Of a stretch of 64,000 bases of DNA, positions 1,538 through 62,994 are shown one piece after another. The stretch is from the NCBI RefSeq assembly GCF_013343115.1, contig NZ_CP054570.1:1982501-2046500 (forward strand), in the 5' to 3' direction. Both the position numbers and the translations under genes were made by a program. Position 1 is the first letter of the stretch, and every line of letters begins with the position of its first letter. This DNA is from Streptococcus sanguinis. Its GTDB lineage: Bacteria; Bacillota; Bacilli; Lactobacillales; Streptococcaceae. Below the pieces are notes generated by a model. That model saw nothing but the letters and a program-made list of their open reading frames with translations. It was not told the origin of the DNA and made no database searches.

Positions 1538-3090
<1,553 letters not shown>

Positions 3091-3230
3091 AAAGTTTGAG
3101 TTCGCACTCATTACTGTCCACTGACAGATTTATTTTCGTTTTTTGACAGGTTACATATCTCTATGTCACCCTGCACTTGGTTCGTCTTGTTCAGTTTTCA
3201 AAGGGCTTTGTCTTTCGCGACAACTATATT

Positions 3231-3260
3231 AGTATATCACCTATACCCACCAACTGTCAA
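3231..3260 (-). promoter_or_regulatory. rRNA operon promoter
   Basis: The minus strand carries TTGACA (3255-3260), an 18-base spacer and TATACT (3231-3236), about 140 bases ahead of the mature 16S 5' end. A perfect -35 and a strong -10 fit an rrn promoter. No second promoter is obvious before the upstream gene's stop at 3324. Confidence 0.8.
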
Positions 3261-3323
3261 TACCTTTTTTGAAAAAAATTAAAAGTTTTCTAGAATTTTT
3301 TATTCATCAGAGGCTAGCCTCTA

Positions 3324-4577
3324 TTAAAGAGTGGGAAGATAAGCTTCCTCACCTAGTTGACGAGCTAATAAACCAGCTCTCGCCAGCTGAAGCAAAGTCT
3401 TTGTGAATTCATAAATATGATCTGTTTCACTTGCGGTTAACTCTTTTTTAGAAAACTTTCTTCTTAAAGCTTTGTAATCCCGACTTTCCTCCTGAAAGAA
3501 GGGAGCGTTTTGTAAATAGGCTTTTACACTTTCCAAATTTTCTAAAATACCAAGATGAAAAGCAGCAGAAGAAAAGGTTCTATCAAAAGGCTGAGTACAG
3601 ACACTCCGAAACTCTACTGTCCCCCGTGTCGTCAAATCTTGATACTGGTAACTTCTGTGATTCTTGAAGTCTGCTTCCCTTGGAGTCAAGTTTACTTTTT
3701 CACCTGAAAGGCTATAAGCTTCAATAGTTTTCTGGCTCAAGTATTCATTAGCAGCTATCGGATAGAAATAGTAGGATTTACCTTCACGTTCGGCAGTAAA
3801 AAGTGCTGATCTATTGAGATATGCAAAAAAATCATCTTCAGTTTGAAAATCTTTCGAATTCACACCCGCATTTTCCTGTAAAATGCCATGCATCGATTGC
3901 TCCCAGAAAATATCCCGAGCTATTTTTGTATCCCAAGAAGAATCCGAAAACTCTGAATTAGCAAAGAGGTATGCCTTAGCAGCTTCAATTTGATTGAAGA
4001 CATTGATAACAGTTAAATAATTTTCTCTTGAGACATCCAGCTGAACTTGACTCCCACAAATAAAAGCACCATATTCTGGATAATTGTGCAGACCATCCAT
4101 GTTCTTTCCCATAGCTAAATACTGCATCAACATTTCATATCTTGGATACTTAACTGGACTATTATCATTTTCTGCCCAGAAAGGATGAATTCCTTTACCT
4201 TGAATTTCATGGTTTTCTTTGCGTAGAATTGCCTGAATAATGCTCAGATAGTTCTTAAAACGCTCTTCAACTTCTTGAATTCTGCTAGCCTTGGCAAAAG
4301 CAAATTCCAAAGTATTGTAAGAGACCTCAAAAAGAATTCTGTCTTCATTTTTAGTAGATTTCAGTTGAATGGGATTCCCGTCTCTGTCAAATCGTTCTGC
4401 CTCAAAATCATACTCTTCCAACAGATGTTTTAAGAGATTTTTTGCAACATTTGTATCAGTCGCTCCGCCCTGGCTATTGACAATAGGAAATTCTAACTCA
4501 ATGCCAATGTATACCGTTGGATTTTCTTTGATATTCTTTAAATAGCGTTCTTTTAAAATTTGGATTGAATCCATCAT
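3324..4577 (-). CDS. glutamate-cysteine ligase family protein (stand-alone GCS-like)
   Basis: A 417-residue protein resembling the ligase domain of gamma-glutamylcysteine synthetases. It has an N-terminal YIGIELEFPIV segment (the Glu-rich metal/ATP-binding start of the fold) and a later RGTVEFRSVCTQPFD segment like those around substrate-binding residues of the family. There is no ATP-grasp glutathione synthetase domain, unlike the roughly 750-residue bifunctional GshF of many streptococci. ATG 4577 was chosen because AGGA sits 7 bases upstream, while ATG 4583 overlaps the Shine-Dalgarno. It lies alone between the ribosomal protein operon and the rRNA operon. The reaction (Glu + Cys + ATP, or another amine) is inferred from family only. 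Confidence 0.75.
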   Translation of the reverse strand: MMDSIQILKERYLKNIKENPTVYIGIELEFPIVNSQGGATDTNVAKNLLKHLLEEYDFEAERFDRDGNPIQLKSTKNEDRILFEVSYNTLEFAFAKASRIQEVEERFKNYLSIIQAILRKENHEIQGKGIHPFWAENDNSPVKYPRYEMLMQYLAMGKNMDGLHNYPEYGAFICGSQVQLDVSRENYLTVINVFNQIEAAKAYLFANSEFSDSSWDTKIARDIFWEQSMHGILQENAGVNSKDFQTEDDFFAYLNRSALFTAEREGKSYYFYPIAANEYLSQKTIEAYSLSGEKVNLTPREADFKNHRSYQYQDLTTRGTVEFRSVCTQPFDRTFSSAAFHLGILENLESVKAYLQNAPFFQEESRDYKALRRKFSKKELTASETDHIYEFTKTLLQLARAGLLARQLGEEAYLPTL

Positions 4578-5228: not shown

Positions 5229-6167
5229 TTATTTATCGTTTTTTAACCCCAGACCGAGATCAGCAAGTTTAACTTTTACTTCTTCCAGACTCTTGCGTCC
5301 CAAGTTACGAACTTTCATCATTTCAGGCTCAGATTTTTCTGTCAAATCAAATACAGTATTGATACCTGCACGTTTCAAACAGTTGTATGAGCGAACTGAC
5401 AAATCTAATTCTTCGATGGTCCGTTCCAAAATGCGGTCATCAGAAGTCTTTTCTGCTTCCTTCATAACGTCTGCAGCGATAGCTACTTCTGTCAGATTAG
5501 TGAAGAGATTCAAATGTTCCGTAAGGATGCGGGCTGAAAGTCCCAAAGCATCTTCTGGAATAATTGTTCCATTCGTTAAAATTTCAAGGGTTAGTTTGTC
5601 AAAACCATCGTTGCTACCAACACGAGCTGGCTCAACCTGGTAATTAACTTTTGTCACTGGCGTATAGATAGAATCCACCGCAAGTGTTCCCACTGGTGCA
5701 TCATCTTTCTTATTTTCATCTGCAGGCACATAACCACGACCGCTGTTGACAGTCATCGTTGCCTTAAAGCTTGCGCCTTCTCCGATTGTAAAGAGATAAT
5801 GATCAGGGTTTATAATTTCAATATCACTGTCTGTCAAAATGTCTCCGGCAGTTACTTCTGCTGGGCCTTCAACATCCAGTTCAATAATCTTTTCGTCTTG
5901 GACGTAAGATTTTACAGCAATCCCTTTGACGTTCAGAATAATTTGCATCACGTCTTCGCGGACACCGGAAATTGTATCAAACTCGTGCAAAACACCTTCA
6001 ATATTAATTGAAGTAACAGCAGCTCCTGGAAGTGAAGCCAAAAGCACACGGCGAAGAGAATTTCCCAGTGTTGTACCATAGCCACGCTCAAGCGGCTCTA
6101 CTACAAACTTGCCATAATCTTTATTTTCATCAATTTTTGTTATATTTGGTTTTTCAAACTCAATCAT
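5229..6167 (-). CDS. rpoA: DNA-directed RNA polymerase subunit alpha
   Basis: A 312-residue alpha subunit. The N-terminal dimerisation domain (about 1-225) includes [21 protein letters not shown] short acidic linker leads to the C-terminal helix-hairpin-helix domain (about 240-312, [20 protein letters not shown]), which contacts UP elements and activators. It scaffolds the beta and beta' subunits. The gene lies 45 bases after rpsK and 11 before rplQ, the standard alpha operon order. Confidence 0.99.
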
Positions 6168-6212
6168 TTGCTATACTCCCTCTTAAACGAAAAGCAGTGT
6201 AACGGTTGGTGA

Positions 6213-6596
6213 TTATACACGGCGACGTTTTGGAGGACGAGCACCATTGTGTGGTACAGGAGTCACATCACGAATAGCTGTTACTTCAAGACCAGCGGCA
6301 GCAAGAGCACGAATAGCAGACTCACGACCAGAACCTGGACCTTTTACAGTAACTTCAACTGATTTCAGACCGTGTTCCTGTGCAGATTTAGCAGCTGCTT
6401 CAGATGCCATTTGGGCAGCAAATGGTGTAGATTTACGAGAACCTTTAAATCCAAGAGCTCCAGCAGATGACCAAGCAATCGCGTTACCATGCACATCAGT
6501 AATCATAACAATAGTGTTATTAAATGTAGCGTGAATATGAGCAATACCGGATTCGATATTTTTCTTCACACGACGTTTACGTGTTGGTTTAGCCAA
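6213..6596 (-). CDS. rpsK: 30S ribosomal protein S11
   Basis: This 127-residue protein has the S11 core ([20 protein letters not shown]) and the closing segment [19 protein letters not shown]11 lies on the platform of the small subunit near the 3' end of 16S rRNA. It follows rpsM by 19 bases. Length and order are standard. Confidence 0.98.
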
Positions 6597-6615
6597 GACT
6601 TTTTACCTCCTTATA

Positions 6616-6981
6616 TTATTTTTTCTTACCTGCAATCGCAACAGCTTTACCTTTACGAGTGCGGGCGTTATTTTTAGTGTTTTGTCCACGGACAGGAAGT
6701 CCACGACGGTGACGGATTCCACGGTATGAACCGATTTCCATCAAACGTTTGATGTTCAAGTTTACTTCACGACGAAGGTCACCTTCAACTTTAATCGCAT
6801 CTACTTCACGACGGATAGCGTCTTCTTGTTCGATTGTAAGATCTTTTACACGAATATCTTCTGAAACTCCAGCAGCTGCCAAGATTTTCTTAGAAGTTGG
6901 AAGTCCGATACCGTACACATAAGTCAGTGAAACGACTACACGTTTGTCATTTGGAATGTCAACTCCAGCAATACGAGCCAT
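6616..6981 (-). CDS. rpsM: 30S ribosomal protein S13
   Basis: This 121-residue protein starts [19 protein letters not shown] and has [20 protein letters not shown], the S13 signature. Its basic C-terminal tail reaches the P-site tRNA, and S13 forms bridges to the large subunit from the 30S head. It lies 17 bases after rpmJ in the alpha operon. Confidence 0.98.
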
Positions 6982-54873: not shown

Positions 54874-57528
54874 TTATTTGCGGCGTCCTGGGCGTTCCTT
54901 GTAGCCATAGTAAGCGTCTTCGATGATTTCCTGCATGTGGTCAACCATTGGAAGGCGTGGGTTGGCTGGAGAACATTGGTCTTCGTAGGCAAGGAAGGCC
55001 AATTCACGTGAATGTTCTTTCCATTCTTTTTCGTCAATACCTTGAGCCTTGAAGTTCATTTCGATACCGACACGTTCTCCCAGTTCATAAACAGCTTTCG
55101 CAAATGATTCCACACCTTCTTCTGGAGTAGAAGCTGGAAGTCCAAGCATGCGTGCGATGTCTTGGTATTTCTCATCCGCACGGTAGTAGTTGTACTTAGG
55201 CCATGTCGCTGTCTTAGCTGGACGTGTACCGTTATAGCGGATTACGTATGGCAGCAAGATCGCATTGGTACGACCGTGGATCGTATGGAACTGAGCACCA
55301 ATCTTATGGGCCATAGAGTGGGAAATTCCCAGGAAGGCATTGGCAAAGGCCATACCAGCGATAGTAGAGGCATTGTGCATCTTTTCGCGAGAGTGGAAGT
55401 CAGCATTCTTAACAGAGCTTTCCAGATTTTCAAAGACGAGTTTGATCGCTTGGAGAGCCAAACCATCTGTAAAGTCGCTGGCCATCTGAGATACATAAGC
55501 TTCTGTGGCGTGAGTCAGAACGTCCATACCAGTGTCTGCTGCAACAAATCCTGGAACAGTCAGTACCAGAGCTGGGTCTACGATGGCTACAGTTGGAGTC
55601 AGAGAGTAGTCAGCGATTGGGTACTTACGGTTGTTAGCCTTGTCAGAGATAACGGCAAACGGTGTTACTTCTGAACCTGTACCAGATGTTGTAGGGATTG
55701 CGATAAACTTAGTCTTCTTGCCAAGCAATGGGAATTTGAAGGCACGTTTACGGATATCCATGAATTTTTGCACAAGATCACGGAAGTCCACTTCTGGTTG
55801 CTCATAGAAGAGCCACATGACTTTAGCTGCGTCCATTGGTGAACCACCACCAAGTGCGATAATTGTATCAGGTTTGAAGGTACGCATAATCTCTGTACCA
55901 CGTTCAACTGTTGTGATATCTGGATCTGGCTCTACGTCTGCAAAGATTTGGTAAACAACCTTATTACGACGAAGATCGAGTTGTTCGATGATACGATCTA
56001 GGAAACCAAGCTCTACCATAGCATGGTCTGTAACGATCATGACACGTTCCACATCACGACATTTTTGCAGGTATTGGATAGAGTCACGCTCGAAGTAAGT
56101 TTTTGAAGGGAGTTTCATCCATTGCATATTATTTCTACGTCTTCCTACTTTTTTGATGTTCAAGAGATTCACAGCACTAACGTTATCACCAACTGAGTTG
56201 CGGCCATAAGATCCACAGCCCAAAGTCAGTGATGGCAGGAAGGCATTATAAACATCCCCGATACCGCCGAAAGTAGAAGGTGAGTTACAAATAACACGGA
56301 TAGCACGAACAGCCTTACCAAATTCCTTAGTCAATTCTTCGTCCGCTGTATGGATAGCAGCTGAGTGGCCAAGACCATGAAATTCTACCATTTGACGGGC
56401 TTTTTCAACACCGTCTTCACGGGATTCAGACTTGAGAACAGCAATGACAGGTGACAGTTTTTCACGTGTCAATGGCTCTTTTTCACCAACTTCTTTACAC
56501 TCTGCGGCCAAGATATTCGTGTCTTCTGGCACGCTGAAGCCTGCCTGCTCTGCAATCCAAGTAGCTGGCTTACCAACGATATCCGGATTGAGCTTAGCAC
56601 CAGCACAGTTCTTGCTATTTGCCTTAGCACCGAAGCAGAATTCTTCCAACAGAGCTTTTTCTTTCTTATTTACAAAGTAAGTATGATAAGATTTGAACTC
56701 TTCTACAAATTCATCATAAACTTCCTTGTCAATGATAACAGCTTGCTCAGAAGCACAAACCATACCATTGTCAAAGGACTTAGACATAACGATATCGTGC
56801 GCTGCTTGACGGATATTAGCGGATTTTTCCACATAAGCTGGTACGTTTCCGGCACCTACCCCAAGGGCTGGTTTTCCGCATGAATAGGCAGCCTTCACCA
56901 TTGCATTACCACCGGTCGCAAGGATAGTCGCAATCCCTTCGTGGTTCATAAGGGCAGAAGTTGCTTCCATAGATGGTTGTGTAATCCATTGCACACAGTT
57001 CTCAGGCGCACCTGCTGCAATCGCTGCATCACGAACGATTTGCGCTGCATGGGCAGATGATTCTTGAGCTGATGGGTGGAAAGCAAAGATAATCGGATTA
57101 CGTGTTTTTAAGGAAATCAAAGCCTTAAAAATAGCTGTTGAAGTTGGGTTAGTTGTTGGAGTAATTCCGCAGACAACACCCACAGGCTCCGCAATCAAGG
57201 TCAAACCAGTCACATCATCTTCCTGAATAACACCGACAGTTTTCGTGTGGCGCATATTATTCACAACGTGCTCACAGGCGAAAAGGTTTTTAGTTGCCTT
57301 ATCTTCAAAAACTCCACGGCCCGTTTCTTCATAAGCATGCAGAGCCAACTCACCATGGGCATCCAAAGCTGCTACAGAAGCCTTGGCTACAATGTAATCC
57401 ACCTGTTCCTGATTCAGCTTTCTCATTTCCTCCAGTGCAACCAGACCTTTTTGCACCAATTCATCGACATGCTTTTGCGCTGCCAAAGCCTTGTCTTCTT
57501 GTTCTACCGTTTTCTTCTTTTCAGCCAT
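54874..57528 (-). CDS. adhE: bifunctional acetaldehyde-CoA/alcohol dehydrogenase
   Basis: An 884-residue fusion that reduces acetyl-CoA to acetaldehyde and then ethanol, using two NADH. The N-terminal aldehyde dehydrogenase (about 1-440) has the catalytic Cys in NGMVCASEQAVI. The C-terminal iron alcohol dehydrogenase (about 460-865) has IALGGGSPMDAAKVMWL and the metal-binding GISHSMAHKIGAQFHTIHGR. Such proteins form spirosome filaments. Two good Rex operators and a cre lie upstream, matching redox and glucose control. Confidence 0.98.
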   Translation of the reverse strand: MAEKKKTVEQEDKALAAQKHVDELVQKGLVALEEMRKLNQEQVDYIVAKASVAALDAHGELALHAYEETGRGVFEDKATKNLFACEHVVNNMRHTKTVGVIQEDDVTGLTLIAEPVGVVCGITPTTNPTSTAIFKALISLKTRNPIIFAFHPSAQESSAHAAQIVRDAAIAAGAPENCVQWITQPSMEATSALMNHEGIATILATGGNAMVKAAYSCGKPALGVGAGNVPAYVEKSANIRQAAHDIVMSKSFDNGMVCASEQAVIIDKEVYDEFVEEFKSYHTYFVNKKEKALLEEFCFGAKANSKNCAGAKLNPDIVGKPATWIAEQAGFSVPEDTNILAAECKEVGEKEPLTREKLSPVIAVLKSESREDGVEKARQMVEFHGLGHSAAIHTADEELTKEFGKAVRAIRVICNSPSTFGGIGDVYNAFLPSLTLGCGSYGRNSVGDNVSAVNLLNIKKVGRRRNNMQWMKLPSKTYFERDSIQYLQKCRDVERVMIVTDHAMVELGFLDRIIEQLDLRRNKVVYQIFADVEPDPDITTVERGTEIMRTFKPDTIIALGGGSPMDAAKVMWLFYEQPEVDFRDLVQKFMDIRKRAFKFPLLGKKTKFIAIPTTSGTGSEVTPFAVISDKANNRKYPIADYSLTPTVAIVDPALVLTVPGFVAADTGMDVLTHATEAYVSQMASDFTDGLALQAIKLVFENLESSVKNADFHSREKMHNASTIAGMAFANAFLGISHSMAHKIGAQFHTIHGRTNAILLPYVIRYNGTRPAKTATWPKYNYYRADEKYQDIARMLGLPASTPEEGVESFAKAVYELGERVGIEMNFKAQGIDEKEWKEHSRELAFLAYEDQCSPANPRLPMVDHMQEIIEDAYYGYKERPGRRK

Positions 57529-57801: not shown

Positions 57802-57825
57802 TAAAAAGCTCGGACGAACCGAGCT
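57802..57825 (-). terminator. terminator of the LXG toxin cassette
   Basis: AGCTCGG/CCGAGCT stem with a 5-base loop, followed by TTTTTATATTT on the minus strand, 57 bases after the candidate immunity gene. Confidence 0.88.
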
Positions 57826-57881: not shown

Positions 57882-58499
57882 TCAATCGTCATCATAAACA
57901 CGTTCACCATGTATTTTGATATATTCTTCGCGTTTTCTATCCAACTCTTCCCAGATGGGATCGTCAATAGCATCAATCGTCTGAATTTCTTCCAGGCTCA
58001 TCTCATTTGCTTCATCAAAGGTTAGAGATAAGATATCTTGGTGCTTTTCCTTGAATTCCTCGACTGTTAGCCATGTTTTCTTATCATCTTCACTGATTTG
58101 TCCATCAATAGCAATTGCAATTTCAAGCGCCATAATATACATAGCACGCTTATCAACTGTTAAAACATCCAAATAATTAGAAGCGATTCTTAGATATTTT
58201 CCCTTTTCTCTACCGTCGCTTTCATAACTTCCCTCATAATCCAAATCAATATTTTCATATTTTTGGGAATTTATTGCACTGCCACCTTTAACCTTGGCAT
58301 CTTTCCAACGAGAGCCACTTGCTCCCCACTTATCTAAACGCAAAGATAAATAAAAGTCATTTTGCAACATCTCATCATCCCCGACATTTGAGAAACTTAT
58401 TTTTTGACCATTTCTTTCTTTAAACCACATTTTCCATGCAAGTTCTCTGTAGCCAAATGACACTTTTCTAGTATAATCACCTTTTATATATAATCTCAT
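57882..58499 (-). CDS. candidate immunity protein for the LXG toxin
   Basis: A 205-residue soluble protein with no signal peptide or membrane helix. It starts MRLYIKGDYTRKVSFGYREL and has a strongly acidic C-terminal half (EFKEKHQDILSLTFDEANEM, then EEIQTIDAIDDPIWEELDRK). I recognise no family. It begins 9 bases after the toxin stop, where LXG immunity genes usually lie. ATG 58499 was chosen because AGGTG lies just upstream; the GTG at 58508 overlaps that site. The acidic surface could mask the basic toxin domain; inference only. Confidence 0.65.
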   Translation of the reverse strand: MRLYIKGDYTRKVSFGYRELAWKMWFKERNGQKISFSNVGDDEMLQNDFYLSLRLDKWGASGSRWKDAKVKGGSAINSQKYENIDLDYEGSYESDGREKGKYLRIASNYLDVLTVDKRAMYIMALEIAIAIDGQISEDDKKTWLTVEEFKEKHQDILSLTFDEANEMSLEEIQTIDAIDDPIWEELDRKREEYIKIHGERVYDDD

Positions 58500-58508
58500 A
58501 CACTTCAC

Positions 58509-60140
58509 CTAATTTCCGTAATAGTCTCGGTATCCTTTCCAGATTCTTTCTACAATTTCACTTTTTACACTTTTATCTAGGTTTTTAATCTTTTTAGTTT
58601 TATTCACCCAATCCAATATATCTGTTTTGCTGGATATACTATTAACATCTATAGATTCGTTAAGTGAATACCCCGACTTCCCACTTCCAGATTGAACCTG
58701 GAAAACTCCATCACCATTCGAACCACTCGTTGGCTCCCAATCTACACGAAGCTTCACTTTTCGATTTCCTACTCGGGCTTCAATTTGTTTACCACCTCTG
58801 CCAGAAATGGTCTTACTCGTCGGTTTATTTGCCTGCCAGCTGTTATAGTTACTAGCTGCACTGAGGGTAACTCCTAAATTCGCTGTATCAATTTCATAAA
58901 GAGTTCTAGCAACTGACAAAGTCCCATCTACAACTAGGCCTTCTGCAGTAATATACCCTGCTTCTACAGCAGCTGCTGCTACTAGCGCCGAGCCACCTCC
59001 AGTTAGTGGAGCCCACTCCAAAGCAAAAGCTGCTCCTAGAGAAGTACCAGCATAAATACCAAGACCAGCTAAAATTTCTACTACTCCCTTAGCCAAGTCA
59101 ACAGAATTAGCTTCAAAATTTTCTTGAATAAGTTCTTGGTATTTTTCATTGACCATTCTCGTATAAGCACTATCATACTTTCCATTTTTTAGTACAGAAA
59201 AGTTATCATCTTTTTGATAATGACGATCCTTATAAGCTCTAAAATCAAAAATATCAATTATATTGCCTTCATTGTCAATCTTTAGAGTATGATTATAATC
59301 ATCAACAATCTTATCCCATTCTGAACGCGGTTTCCCCTTTAACTTTTCCTTGAGTTGACTACGATAATAGGCATCCCCTTCATCCGATAGCATCATATTC
59401 CGAGAAGCTTCTTGAATCAATCGTTCTTTAGGCTCTAGATATTTTTTCTTCGAAATAGTCTGAATCTTCTGAGCCTTCATCTTAGTAGACCAACTCATAT
59501 CTATGCCATCAGTAGAGTAATTACCCTCACTGTCTACCAATACCTGACTAAGCTGCGTCGCTCCTTGGATAGCTAAACCCAAAACCTGCAGACTATCTGT
59601 GAAATACTGGGACACCTGATCCACAAACCATTCCAGTTTGTCTATTTTTTCTTGAATTTCTCGAATACCGATATTTAGTTGAGTTTCAACTTCCATTAAA
59701 GCAGATGTCTGAGATAAAAGGTCTCCCAACTTACCTGTCAGCAGAGCTCCTGCATTACGGAAAAAATCTTGATTATCTGCAATCTGCTTTTCTACTTTTG
59801 CCAGTTGCTCATTTTTTATTTTCAGCTGTTCCTTCAGTAGATCCAAGTCCAATTCGCCATATCCAGCCACCTCGGAATCAGCACTTTTATAGGAAGCAAG
59901 CTCTCCCTGAATATCATCAATAGCCTCTTGCAACTTCTTGATGGCAGGGATGATTACCTCAGTAAATAAGCCTTTTCCTGCTGTATAAGCCGCTCCCTGC
60001 AACTCACCCGAATCCAAAGAGGCAATCAGATGGTCGCAGCCACTAGATAGACGATCGGTCACCTGATTGGCTACTTGAAGGTTGCTGGTCATCGCTTGGA
60101 TAAGCTGGGCTGAATCTGCTGCACTATATTTTACTCCCAC
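58509..60140 (-). CDS. LXG-domain polymorphic toxin (T7SSb effector), unknown C-terminal activity
   Basis: A 543-residue protein. The N-terminal LXG domain (about 1-210) is long helices, starting MGVKYSAADSAQLIQAMTSN, with coiled-coil segments around 90-185. A middle linker (210-350) follows. A Gly/Ala-rich hydrophobic stretch (about 355-405) precedes a basic C-terminal domain of about 115 residues (GRGGKQIEARVGNRKVKLRV; then ISSKTDILDWVNKTKKIKNL). I cannot assign its activity; the RVDWEP piece loosely recalls some polymorphic toxin nuclease-like tails. No secretion machine (EssC etc.) is in this window. Confidence 0.85.
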   Translation of the reverse strand: MGVKYSAADSAQLIQAMTSNLQVANQVTDRLSSGCDHLIASLDSGELQGAAYTAGKGLFTEVIIPAIKKLQEAIDDIQGELASYKSADSEVAGYGELDLDLLKEQLKIKNEQLAKVEKQIADNQDFFRNAGALLTGKLGDLLSQTSALMEVETQLNIGIREIQEKIDKLEWFVDQVSQYFTDSLQVLGLAIQGATQLSQVLVDSEGNYSTDGIDMSWSTKMKAQKIQTISKKKYLEPKERLIQEASRNMMLSDEGDAYYRSQLKEKLKGKPRSEWDKIVDDYNHTLKIDNEGNIIDIFDFRAYKDRHYQKDDNFSVLKNGKYDSAYTRMVNEKYQELIQENFEANSVDLAKGVVEILAGLGIYAGTSLGAAFALEWAPLTGGGSALVAAAAVEAGYITAEGLVVDGTLSVARTLYEIDTANLGVTLSAASNYNSWQANKPTSKTISGRGGKQIEARVGNRKVKLRVDWEPTSGSNGDGVFQVQSGSGKSGYSLNESIDVNSISSKTDILDWVNKTKKIKNLDKSVKSEIVERIWKGYRDYYGN

Positions 60141-60490
60141 GGCAGACTATTCCTTTCTTTGGTCAGTTTGTCTCGCTCTTCTTCCATAGTCTTTCTTGTT
60201 TGACGACTGAGCTTTCCAAGTTCATCCATCTGAACATCCACATAGTTCTTAACCTGTCGGTTAAGATACTGATTTTCTGATAAATCACGACTGAGGGCAG
60301 CAGAGCTTTGAGGGTGTTCATAAAGTAGATGTTCCATTCGGGTCGTCAAGTATTGGAAATCCGTCGCAAAATTCGCCAGGGAAATCTCGTATTGACGTTT
60401 CATCGTCATAAATTCGTCTTCTTTTTGGTCAACTTTGAGAATTTTTTCGTAAAGTGCCTGACGTTCTTTTTCGCTTTTATCAGCCTTCAT
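60131..60490 (-). CDS. LapA2-like (DUF3958) LXG targeting protein
   Basis: A 119-residue, highly charged helical protein (QALYEKILKVDQKEDEFMTM, then RQVKNYVDVQMDELGKLSRQ, ending ERNSLPWE). Size, helical content and position directly before an LXG gene match the DUF3958/LapA2 family, which in S. intermedius binds the LXG domain and is needed for export. It overlaps the toxin start by 10 bases. Confidence 0.8.
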   Translation of the reverse strand: MKADKSEKERQALYEKILKVDQKEDEFMTMKRQYEISLANFATDFQYLTTRMEHLLYEHPQSSAALSRDLSENQYLNRQVKNYVDVQMDELGKLSRQTRKTMEEERDKLTKERNSLPWE

Positions 60491-60491
60491 C

Positions 60492-60764
60492 TCAACTCTC
60501 CCAGCGCTTGGCTTCCTCTATATCGCGTTTTTCAATTTTTGCAGCAATTTCTGGAAATTTATTGGCCTGAGTCAGAACAGCTGAGCTGAAGTCACTGACA
60601 GCCTGCAGCATTTGATTGCAGGCCTGACGGCCAGCTTCCATACCAGCAATCCCTGTTGTATAGGAAAATTCGACTTGTTGATTTTGTGCATTGCTAGTAT
60701 CAACTCCAACGAGCTCACTGATAGCAGAGCCAGCTGAAATGGCGCTTGATTTAATTTGTCCCAT
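60492..60764 (-). CDS. LapA1-like (DUF3130/TIGR04197) LXG targeting protein
   Basis: A 90-residue WXG100-like helical hairpin without the WxG itself: SSAISAGSAISELVGVDTSN, then QMLQAVSDFSSAVLTQANKF and a charged tail AAKIEKRDIEEAKRW. Such small partners pair with LXG domains and supply the secretion signal. It is the first gene of the cassette, 21 bases after the acyltransferase stop, with GGAGAAG as Shine-Dalgarno. Confidence 0.82.
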   Translation of the reverse strand: MGQIKSSAISAGSAISELVGVDTSNAQNQQVEFSYTTGIAGMEAGRQACNQMLQAVSDFSSAVLTQANKFPEIAAKIEKRDIEEAKRWES

Positions 60765-60785: not shown

Positions 60786-62591
60786 TTATGGTTTCACATT
60801 GCCAGAATTTGCTTCATCTATGGCTTGCTTAATGGTATTGGCATAGAGAGTCCCCCCCTCAATCATAGACTCTGAGTTTGAGCCAAAGTGGACATAGTCT
60901 GTCCCTTCCCAAATCTGCGGATTTTCGATAGCAGTTTGATGCCAGTCAGCTACAAAGACATAGTCGTACTTTTTGGCTAATTCCAGCTCATACTCCCGCT
61001 GCTGGGCCAAGACTCCGCCCTCTGAGCGACCGTCATAAGGAGTCACGAGGATCAGTTGATGCCCCTTAGGCAGGCTGGAAACATATTCATCCAAAAGCTC
61101 ATTCGAATAACCAGACGAATTGGTCCCGAGAGCCAGGACAACCTGCTTCTTCAGCACTCTATTAGCAATATCTGTCTTGTAGACCTCTAAGCCTGTGCTC
61201 AGACTGCGGCTAACGACAGTATCTAGCTCGATTCCTGGTAAGATCTGCTGCAATTGTTCGCTTGAGCGTAGGGCAACGGAGTCACCAATCATGGTAATCC
61301 CGTCCGCCACATTGTACTCAGTCGCCTTGGACTGATCAACCTGACTCCGAGTTGTCTGTATCTTAGTGTCTGCTTGATTCAGAGCATTGACAATCAAACT
61401 TTCCTCAAAAGCTCCGACCTTTGGTGCTGTCACCGAAATAAAGAACATAATCAAAGTCAGCGGAATCATGCTGTAAAAGATTGGTCTTGTAAGAGACGAT
61501 AAATCCATCTTGGTTCCCATGATAACTGGCTGACGACCAGCAAGAGTTGGCTCCAAGATATAGAAAGACAAGGCTGCAAAAGTAATAGATAACAGCGTAG
61601 TCAAGAGAACAGCCAAGCCGTTACTCATCAGCTGGGTAAAGATTATATAGAATGGCCAGTGGAAGAGATAAACACCATAGCTGGTATCCGCGATAAAGTT
61701 GATAAGGCTAGGCTCCTTCACATCAGGGAGCTTGTCATGCAACATCCTAGCAGCCAAAATCATCAGACAAGCCAAGATAGTTGAAATCAATAACCCTACC
61801 AGGTAAGTCCAAAGATTGTCAAACTTGAGCAGGAAGCTGAGCAAAAGCAAAATAGCTGCGCTGCCCCCCATAATCCCTAGTACTTGCTTAAGAGTCAGCT
61901 TCTCCTCCAACATCTTAAAGCGACTGCTGACATGGCCGACACCAGACAAGGTAGCCAGAATGCTTCCTGCAAAGAAAGGAAAGACGTGGGTCAAACTTGA
62001 GAAATAAATGTCAGAATAATTCTTAGTGGTCAAAGCGCCAGCAAACATTGATACAAAGCTGAGCAAAAAGAGACCCGCAGAAACCAGCGCAATCATGCCA
62101 CGATAGCGGGCCGTTGACTTGGCAACCTTGCCCAAGCCCCAAGCAGCCAAGCCCCAAAGAACATAATAGTGCACTTCTAAAGCCAGACTCCAAGTGTGGA
62201 TCAGGATGTGCGGTACAAACTGACTCTCATAACTGCCGCCTGAGAGCATTTCATAAAAGTTTGTCACAAAGCCCAAGGCAGCTGCAATCTGTGTCCCAAT
62301 CCCAGCCACAAAATCCTTACGAATCAAGAGAGTAAAGGGCATAACGACCAAAATCATAAAGACCAGAGGCGGTACAATCCGATAAAAACGTCGTTTGAAA
62401 AAGCCTTGGATATCGATTTCTTTCTTCTTGGCAAACTCGTCAATAAGCAGAGATGTAATCAAGAATCCAGAAAAGGTAAAGAAGATATCCACGCCAATAA
62501 AACCGCCAGGGAAAACGCCCTGGAAGTAATGATAAAGCAGAACTAGAAGCAGCCCCGTGATTCTGACGAGCGAAAACCATTTAATGCGCAT
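60786..62591 (-). CDS. OatA-like peptidoglycan O-acetyltransferase
   Basis: A 601-residue membrane enzyme. The N-terminal acyltransferase-3 domain (about 1-375, ten or eleven helices) carries RITGLLLVLLYHYFQGVFPG and the family's GFIGVDIFFTFSGFLI. The extracellular SGNH domain (about 410-601) has GDSVALRSS with the catalytic Ser, LALGTNSSG, and GTDYVHFGSNS with the Asp/His pair. It should O-acetylate MurNAc and resist lysozyme. ATG 62591 overlaps the MORN gene by 11 bases; a start at 62633 is also possible. Confidence 0.9.
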   Translation of the reverse strand: MRIKWFSLVRITGLLLVLLYHYFQGVFPGGFIGVDIFFTFSGFLITSLLIDEFAKKKEIDIQGFFKRRFYRIVPPLVFMILVVMPFTLLIRKDFVAGIGTQIAAALGFVTNFYEMLSGGSYESQFVPHILIHTWSLALEVHYYVLWGLAAWGLGKVAKSTARYRGMIALVSAGLFLLSFVSMFAGALTTKNYSDIYFSSLTHVFPFFAGSILATLSGVGHVSSRFKMLEEKLTLKQVLGIMGGSAAILLLLSFLLKFDNLWTYLVGLLISTILACLMILAARMLHDKLPDVKEPSLINFIADTSYGVYLFHWPFYIIFTQLMSNGLAVLLTTLLSITFAALSFYILEPTLAGRQPVIMGTKMDLSSLTRPIFYSMIPLTLIMFFISVTAPKVGAFEESLIVNALNQADTKIQTTRSQVDQSKATEYNVADGITMIGDSVALRSSEQLQQILPGIELDTVVSRSLSTGLEVYKTDIANRVLKKQVVLALGTNSSGYSNELLDEYVSSLPKGHQLILVTPYDGRSEGGVLAQQREYELELAKKYDYVFVADWHQTAIENPQIWEGTDYVHFGSNSESMIEGGTLYANTIKQAIDEANSGNVKP

Positions 62592-62994
62592 TTTGATAAA
62601 TTCCTTGTTTAAACGTTCCTTCATAAACGACATTGCCTTCTGTCGTTAGTTTTCCTTGTCCATCGGCCTGGCCCTTGCTGAAGTCCCCTTCATATTTCCA
62701 GCCAGCCTGCGAGGTAAAAGTTCCTTTGCCGTCAAAAATGCCATTGCGAAATTGACCGCTATAACTGTCCCCATTTTGAAAAGTCATAGTCCCCTGACCG
62801 TTCATCTTCCCGCGAACCAAGGTCCCGTCATACTTGATCTTCCCCTGATCCAGCGTTAAAACGCCCTTACCAGGAATCCCCGAGGTAAAAACCAGAATAG
62901 CTGACAGTACAATGACCGTTACAGCCAAAAGTTCTAAATTCTGCCGGGTCAGATAGACCTTGTATTTAGCGTAAAATTCTTTTACTGTATCCAT
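62581..62994 (-). CDS. membrane-anchored MORN-repeat protein
   Basis: A 137-residue protein with one N-terminal helix (LELLAVTVIVLSAILVFTSG, about 20-40) and three or four MORN repeats on the outside: YDGTLVRGKMNGQGTMTFQN, YSGQFRNGIFDGKGTFT, YEGDFSKGQADGQGKLT and YEGTFKQG. MORN repeats bind lipids or proteins; the bacterial role is unclear. It lies between the phosphatase (5-base gap) and the overlapping acyltransferase gene, so the three are likely one unit. A start at 63006 is possible. Confidence 0.8.
   Translation of the reverse strand: MDTVKEFYAKYKVYLTRQNLELLAVTVIVLSAILVFTSGIPGKGVLTLDQGKIKYDGTLVRGKMNGQGTMTFQNGDSYSGQFRNGIFDGKGTFTSQAGWKYEGDFSKGQADGQGKLTTEGNVVYEGTFKQGIYQNAH

Follow-up and report, generated by a model that had tools for sequence, protein, structure and literature searches.

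What does the C-terminal end of an LXG effector with no recognised toxin class do, and is the acidic protein encoded directly behind it the matching immunity protein? The question is raised by a 64,000-nucleotide stretch of Streptococcus sanguinis DNA (positions 1982501-2046500 of NZ_CP054570.1, the single contig of a 2.36-Mb genome; hereafter the window), in which four intact open reading frames (ORFs) of 90, 119, 543 and 205 amino acids form an operon-like cassette on the minus strand (57882-60764). The cassette very probably encodes an antibacterial effector of a type VIIb secretion system (T7SSb), equipped with a two-part toxin domain, together with its cognate cytoplasmic immunity protein. 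Both families, toxin and immunity, seem to be new, but they form a kind of system that is already known. An earlier reading of the same DNA (the original prediction) had described a T7SSb effector layout of LapA1-like, LapA2-like, LXG toxin and downstream gene, and the four ORFs were found intact in that order.

Streptococcus genomes were searched with the 117-residue domain of the window toxin as query, and an alignment was used for wider searches. The toxin domain was found in 23 of 284 Streptococcus genomes. Matches to the immunity protein were present in 29, comprising all 23 toxin carriers and six genomes without the toxin domain, one of which held a 36-residue fragment only. An immunity gene followed the toxin gene in all 24 streptococcal loci, at a distance of 9-15 nt from the toxin stop codon in 22; the gap was 163-173 nt in L016 and L028, where genes are interrupted. 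Isoelectric points (pI) of 9.3-10.0 for the toxin domain and 4.3-4.8 for the immunity protein were calculated in 22 of 22 loci.

The toxin domain consists of a conserved beta half (residues 439-491) followed by a variable helical half (residues 492-543). These halves, the spacer and the LXG region were each compared with the first immunity gene in Mantel tests on 19 of the 24 loci, with L016, L017, L018, L028 and L029 dropped for interrupted or short toxin ORFs. Correlation coefficients of 0.88 and 0.75 were obtained for the helical and beta halves, respectively (0 of 5000 permutations in each case). The spacer gave a weak correlation (r = 0.19, 149/5000), and no co-variation was observed for the LXG region (r = 0.05, 1236/5000). 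For ten non-redundant loci the corresponding values were 0.70 (7/5000) for the helical half, 0.62 (4/5000) for the beta half, 0.16 (750/5000) for the spacer and -0.09 (3370/5000) for the LXG region.

Individual loci illustrate this behavior. The toxin of L011 is 99, 100 and 96% identical to that of the window in the LXG region, spacer and beta half, but its helical half and immunity protein are only 50 and 57% identical. At L007, the LXG region and spacer are 64 and 47% identical to those of the window, but the helical half and immunity protein reach 96 and 97%. The G+C content of the window cassette is 0.472 for the beta half but drops to 0.287 for the helical half, with 0.354 for the immunity gene. 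The tip of the toxin and its partner appear to have been exchanged together between strains, much like a lock and its key, and the co-variation supports the helical half as the likely surface recognised by the immunity protein. Immunity genes also occur in excess: six tandem ORFs are present at L035 (L024 being the same place), and one genome had as many as 11 matches when fragments are counted. The second immunity protein of L013 and one of those of L035 are 95.6 and 94.6% identical to the partner in the window, and the helical halves of the toxins native to these two loci share only 58 and 33% identity with that of the window. Such spare immunity genes are read as protection against the toxins of neighbours.

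The pairing extends beyond the genus. In samples drawn evenly from part of the order, class and phylum, which overlap, the toxin domain was matched in 13 of 395 genomes (five outside Streptococcus), 7 of 398 (two outside the order) and 3 of 398, respectively. Among the named relatives are ones from S. parasanguinis, S. cristatus, S. oralis, S. sanguinis, S. acidominimus, a Streptococcaceae bin and a Thermincola bin. A partner lies beside the toxin in ten non-Streptococcus loci (L042, L053, L054, L055, L057, L059, L067, L073, L074 and L079), and these partners are homologous to the streptococcal ones (hhalign E values of 6e-52 and 4.6e-17; a probability of 0.5% was returned for the negative control of toxin against immunity). 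On the mobilizable Latilactobacillus curvatus plasmid p-1.1928_2 (L067, 1113-5784), the domain terminates a 1386-residue, non-LXG repeat protein with DUF5776/SH3-like matches, and an immunity homologue is encoded 8 nt downstream. A 369-residue carrier in a Bacilli genome (L073), non-LXG as read, likewise ends in the toxin domain and has an adjoining partner, and in Thermincola the domain stands as a lone 98-residue ORF beside an immunity homologue. The plasmid carrier presumably has a signal peptide, and the 369-residue carrier has what we take to be a pilin-like start and a pre-toxin region. Judged from these sequences, the domain has the character of a polymorphic toxin, being placed on several carriers, each with a linked immunity homologue. 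Plasmid searches returned three Enterococcus records for the whole toxin, through the LXG part only, and one Latilactobacillus record for a Lactobacillales form of the domain. No match to the domain was found in phage records, and none of the 22 viral-contig sites that matched a pattern encoded a relative; a phage origin was dropped on these results.

The original prediction had held that the last 115 or so residues of the toxin match no toxin class known to it. This was borne out: no credible match was found in Pfam or NCBIfam by scans of the single protein and of each family member, or in the PDB by sequence or fold. The best values, each from one member, were for DUF7024 (E = 0.0037) and for a viral stalk family (E = 0.0043), and both were taken as chance. 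The toxin-domain profile gave no match to PDB sequences at E ≤ 1; with the wider alignment, one designed protein was returned at E = 0.021 and rejected as not credible, its single domains having values of 16 and 46. Homology to a known toxin family, which would have told against the original prediction, was thus looked for and not found at the sensitivity of library, profile and fold searches. The literature search, with most subscription papers outside its scope, found no title or abstract on the domain.

An AlphaFold2 model of fair quality (predicted local distance difference test score (pLDDT) 82.2, predicted template modelling score (pTM) 0.76) depicts the toxin domain as ∼100 residues with one small sheet. 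Nine residues (S442, K461, R465, V466, D467, E469, Q483, G485 and G487, window toxin numbering) are invariant in 17 diverse alignment rows. One modelled strand spans K461 to E469, and Q483 is on the next. On this strand, residues 461, 465, 467 and 469 would face one side and V466 the other, an arrangement that would fit an active-site face over a packed core.

The acidic 205-residue partner (pI 4.8), likewise described at the outset as unrecognised, matched no credible Pfam, NCBIfam or PADLOC family in single-protein and per-member scans, and its model, of good quality (pLDDT 86.7, pTM 0.87), gave no convincing fold match to the PDB. An archaeal ribonuclease returned by the immunity profile against PDB sequences (E = 0.028, with a domain value of 0.73) was not credible. 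Given that its best 19-residue hydropathy mean is only 1.23, the partner is probably cytoplasmic. Residues 111-205 have a mean identity of 0.69, compared with 0.49-0.58 for the rest. In streptococcal immunity proteins the C-terminus is extended by an acidic tail of ∼30-40 residues, which is absent from the 164-172-residue partners of other Lactobacillales; that such a tail might aid secretion is only a thought, by analogy with MSE-ExT of S. suis. There, C-terminal regions of the immunity protein are reported to help secretion (PMC12558993), and the window partner resembles it in having a variable N-terminal and a conserved C-terminal part. By contrast, DUF6572 was not matched in Pfam scans of the window partner.

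Delivery of the effector would be through a T7SSb. PF04740 matched toxin residues 9-119 with E = 4.5e-5 and 23.8 bits in the Pfam scan, below the cut-off of 26.5; in the genome search the borderline score was 24.8 bits alone and 27.7, above the cut-off, with neighbours in frame. LxG is present at residue 47 in all 19 full-length relatives. The Lap1-like gene matched TIGR04197 (E = 4.8e-4, 20.6 bits, cut-off 26) and DUF3130 (15.6 bits, cut-off 25), each below its threshold, and its product has I77-x3-D81 in place of the FxxxD of the published Lap1 motif (F77/D81 in LapD1; PMC9600955); the relative L038 has F at this position. For the 119-residue Lap2-like protein, DUF3958 was not matched at E ≤ 1 and no other family match was found, the name reflecting position and size.

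The secretion machine had been placed elsewhere in the genome, with essC as the gene to look for, and a full-length EssC was located at 2216847-2220698, ∼170 kb from the cassette (1770.9 bits against TIGR03928, cut-off 778.4). It is preceded by ORFs with the size and order of EsxA, EsaA, EssA, EsaB and EssB, named from order and sequence, so that the T7SSb-like locus is complete as far as its predicted genes can tell. Three LXG genes were found in this genome at E ≤ 0.01, and the toxin domain and the immunity family occur once each. Of the 31 genomes that carry the toxin domain, 25 had EssC above the cut-off, among them 19 of the 23 Streptococcus carriers; in a sample of 177 Streptococcus genomes that is not carrier-free, 55 did. 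Two of the Streptococcus carriers without such a score (G122 and G128, with L018 and L028) have interrupted toxin genes and have kept their immunity genes, and the other two (G142 and G230) have pieces of EssC in fragmented assemblies. The genomes of the 369- and 98-residue carriers (G1311 and G494) also lack EssC above the cut-off.

By comparison with other LXG toxins, Lap1 and Lap2 would bind the LXG domain and bring the toxin to EssC, and the hydrophobic middle of the protein may help the C-terminal domain into a neighbouring cell. Once free of its partner, the basic domain would act in the cytoplasm of the target, with K461, R465, D467 and E469 on one strand face and Q483 on the next strand as the putative active site, and the acidic 205-residue partner would remain in the cytoplasm of the producer and neutralise the toxin domain there. 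New specificities would come from joint exchange of the helical half and the immunity gene, and other strains would build up tandem arrays of spare immunity genes.

Nuclease pairs usually combine a small basic domain, bearing an invariant charged face, with an acidic inhibitor in the cytoplasm. Because the window domain and partner conform to this pattern, and because of the residues listed for Ntox48, the best guess for the activity, a tentative one, is a nuclease, probably an RNase rather than a DNase. A bolder proposal, on the unlikely side, would make the domain a new class of toxin that cuts nucleic acids, with a small fold of its own and two exchangeable parts, a fixed catalytic beta half and a helical immunity address. 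Quite possible, if not expected, is a cytoplasmic enzyme of another kind, degrading NAD(P)+, ADP-ribosylating or otherwise modifying its target, with the same logic of delivery and immunity. The invariant set of R, D, E, Q and K would suit several chemistries. However, a domain of ∼100 residues with one small sheet is below the size of the usual ADP-ribosyltransferase, which is larger, and no ART, TNT or ARC model matched in the Pfam and NCBIfam scans. NADases and ADP-ribosyl cyclases are among the known LXG toxins (PMC10765036, PMC12356396).

Other explanations bear on the pairing and the target. The co-variation could reflect linkage only, the downstream gene riding with the 3' end of the toxin gene without being its immunity gene. 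Some observations do favour this: the genes adjoin, the correlation drops with distance along the toxin, and the second immunity gene of an array still correlates with the helical half (r = 0.49, 2/3000, 15 loci), so that linkage explains part of the co-variation. At the same 15 loci, however, the first gene gave 0.89, and this drop fits a cognate first gene; in addition, the pairing persists outside Streptococcus and outside LXG carriers, and partner copies of ∼95% identity are kept as spares at L013 and L035 in strains with other toxin variants, leaving linkage alone very improbable. A toxic role for the Gly/Ala-rich stretch, with the C-terminal domain as a cap or regulator, is very improbable too. 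Such a glycine-zipper pore of the TelE/EsxX type would have published precedent among LXG toxins (PMC10434224, PMC12744356), and the hydropathy maximum of the toxin, at residue 356 within the stretch 346-425, lies close to a GxxxGxxxG pattern at residue 361, ahead of the C-terminal domain. This pattern is found in just 3 of the 19 full-length relatives, which does not fit a conserved glycine zipper as the toxic element. The immunity protein moreover tracks the C-terminal domain and not the spacer, and has no membrane-length hydrophobic segment, and the domain is also present on other carriers and as the 98-residue ORF, each with an immunity homologue. Finally, an effector acting mainly on host cells has a parallel in some streptococci, whose T7SSb is reported to affect hosts (PMC8675928), but a cytoplasmic partner dedicated to the toxin and spare immunity genes in tandem suit bacterial targets, and relatives are present on a plasmid of Latilactobacillus from sausage and in a Thermincola bin; this explanation is extremely improbable. 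A new effector-immunity pair, put forward as a candidate in the original prediction, is the clear best reading in view of co-occurrence, co-variation, joint swapping and other carriers.

Among known systems, TelA-TelD of Streptococcus intermedius are closest in layout (PMC5555719, PMC9600955). The order Lap1, Lap2, LXG toxin and immunity gene is shared, as are an N-terminal LXG region with LxG, a variable C-terminal toxin domain and EssC in the genome; the C-terminal domain and partner of the window differ in matching no Pfam or NCBIfam family. In its own strain the telA tipA pair lies immediately upstream of the esx genes, unlike the distant cassette of the window, and TelA and TipA, compared here by description only, are said to be without homology to characterised proteins (PMC5555719). 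Ntox48, a predicted BECR-fold RNase toxin class, is listed on LXG carriers with conserved R, [RK], Q and Q (PMC3482391). By description only, it resembles the window domain as a small alpha+beta domain, the latter having invariant R, K and Q; by contrast, the window domain has helices after the sheet, D and E are invariant too, and no library model matched. The SUKH-type, EsaG/DUF600 and DUF443 immunity families are similar in that an acidic cytoplasmic protein is encoded beside the toxin and extra copies occur (PMC10765036), but no sequence or convincing fold relation to the window partner was found.

The features of the cassette are collected in Table 1. Intergenic gaps are 1 nt or are replaced by overlaps, except that 9 nt separate the toxin stop from the partner ATG; the LXG gene begins with GTG and overlaps the preceding gene by 10 nt. 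The partner ORF comprises 208 residues from a GTG or 205 from the ATG at 58499, and the shorter form, the one given in the original prediction, is likelier because AGGTGA lies directly 5' of this ATG. Downstream of the partner gene is a terminator-like hairpin with a T tail (57825-57807); three such sites were found in the window against 2.3 in shuffles, and the scan alone is no proof of a terminator. The cassette lies between an acyltransferase gene (60786-62633) and adhE (54874-57528).

Table 1. Features of the effector-immunity cassette, in window coordinates
Feature	Position	Strand	Basis
Lap1-like targeting factor, 90 aa	60492-60764	-	DUF3130/TIGR04197 matches, both below cut-off
Lap2-like targeting factor, 119 aa	60131-60490	-	Size and position between Lap1 and LXG
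LXG effector, 543 aa	58509-60140	-	ORF and PF04740
LXG delivery region, residues 1-200, LxG at 47-49	59541-60140	-	PF04740 on residues 9-119
Gly/Ala-rich hydrophobic stretch, residues 346-425, possible translocation segment	58866-59105	-	Hydropathy maximum
C-terminal toxin domain, residues 427-543, pI 9.8	58512-58862	-	Family searches, alignment, AlphaFold2 model
Conserved beta half, residues 439-491; invariant S442, K461, R465, D467, E469, Q483	58668-58826	-	17-row alignment and model strands
Variable helical half, residues 492-543, proposed immunity-specificity region, G+C 0.287	58512-58667	-	Co-variation and model
Immunity protein, 205 aa from ATG, pI 4.8, without membrane-length hydrophobic segment	57882-58499	-	ORF, family, AlphaFold2 model
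Terminator-like hairpin closing the cassette	57807-57825	-	Hairpin scan

The cassette region is 93-96% identical to that of S. sanguinis KO16 (L033), except for 672 nt within the toxin gene. There, at the same place beside adhE (2786-4073), the toxin gene is interrupted and the immunity gene intact, its product being 93.7% identical to that of the window. Elsewhere in the source genome, a second LXG cassette (L065 3550-5818; genome 738000-748000) has a Lap1 and LXG start of the same type but a different C-terminal part, and behind it several small proteins, probably of the membrane, are encoded in a row. A third (L066 4210-9701; genome 1562000-1576000) has an LXG of another type; several small ORFs lie downstream, among them two that are alike at 5929-6618 and one of 235 residues resembling a separate toxin end. 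Downstream of essC (L064 13388-18711) are small helical ORFs, an 866-residue protein and then a 295-residue ORF, the last two perhaps a further effector and partner.

New here are both families, their spread, the two-part domain and its joint exchange with the immunity gene. An alignment, a set of invariant residues, two models of fair to confident quality and natural matched and mismatched pairs are now at hand for both families. Natural pairs in which little but the helical half and the partner differs make the splitting of LXG toxins into compatibility groups directly testable. If the fixed catalytic beta half and helical immunity address are as proposed, a swap of the helical half and immunity gene would change the compatibility group with catalysis untouched, and tandem spare immunity genes would be a record of the toxins encountered from oral streptococci nearby. 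The tandem copies of immunity genes point to a role of this toxin family in shaping competition among oral streptococci.

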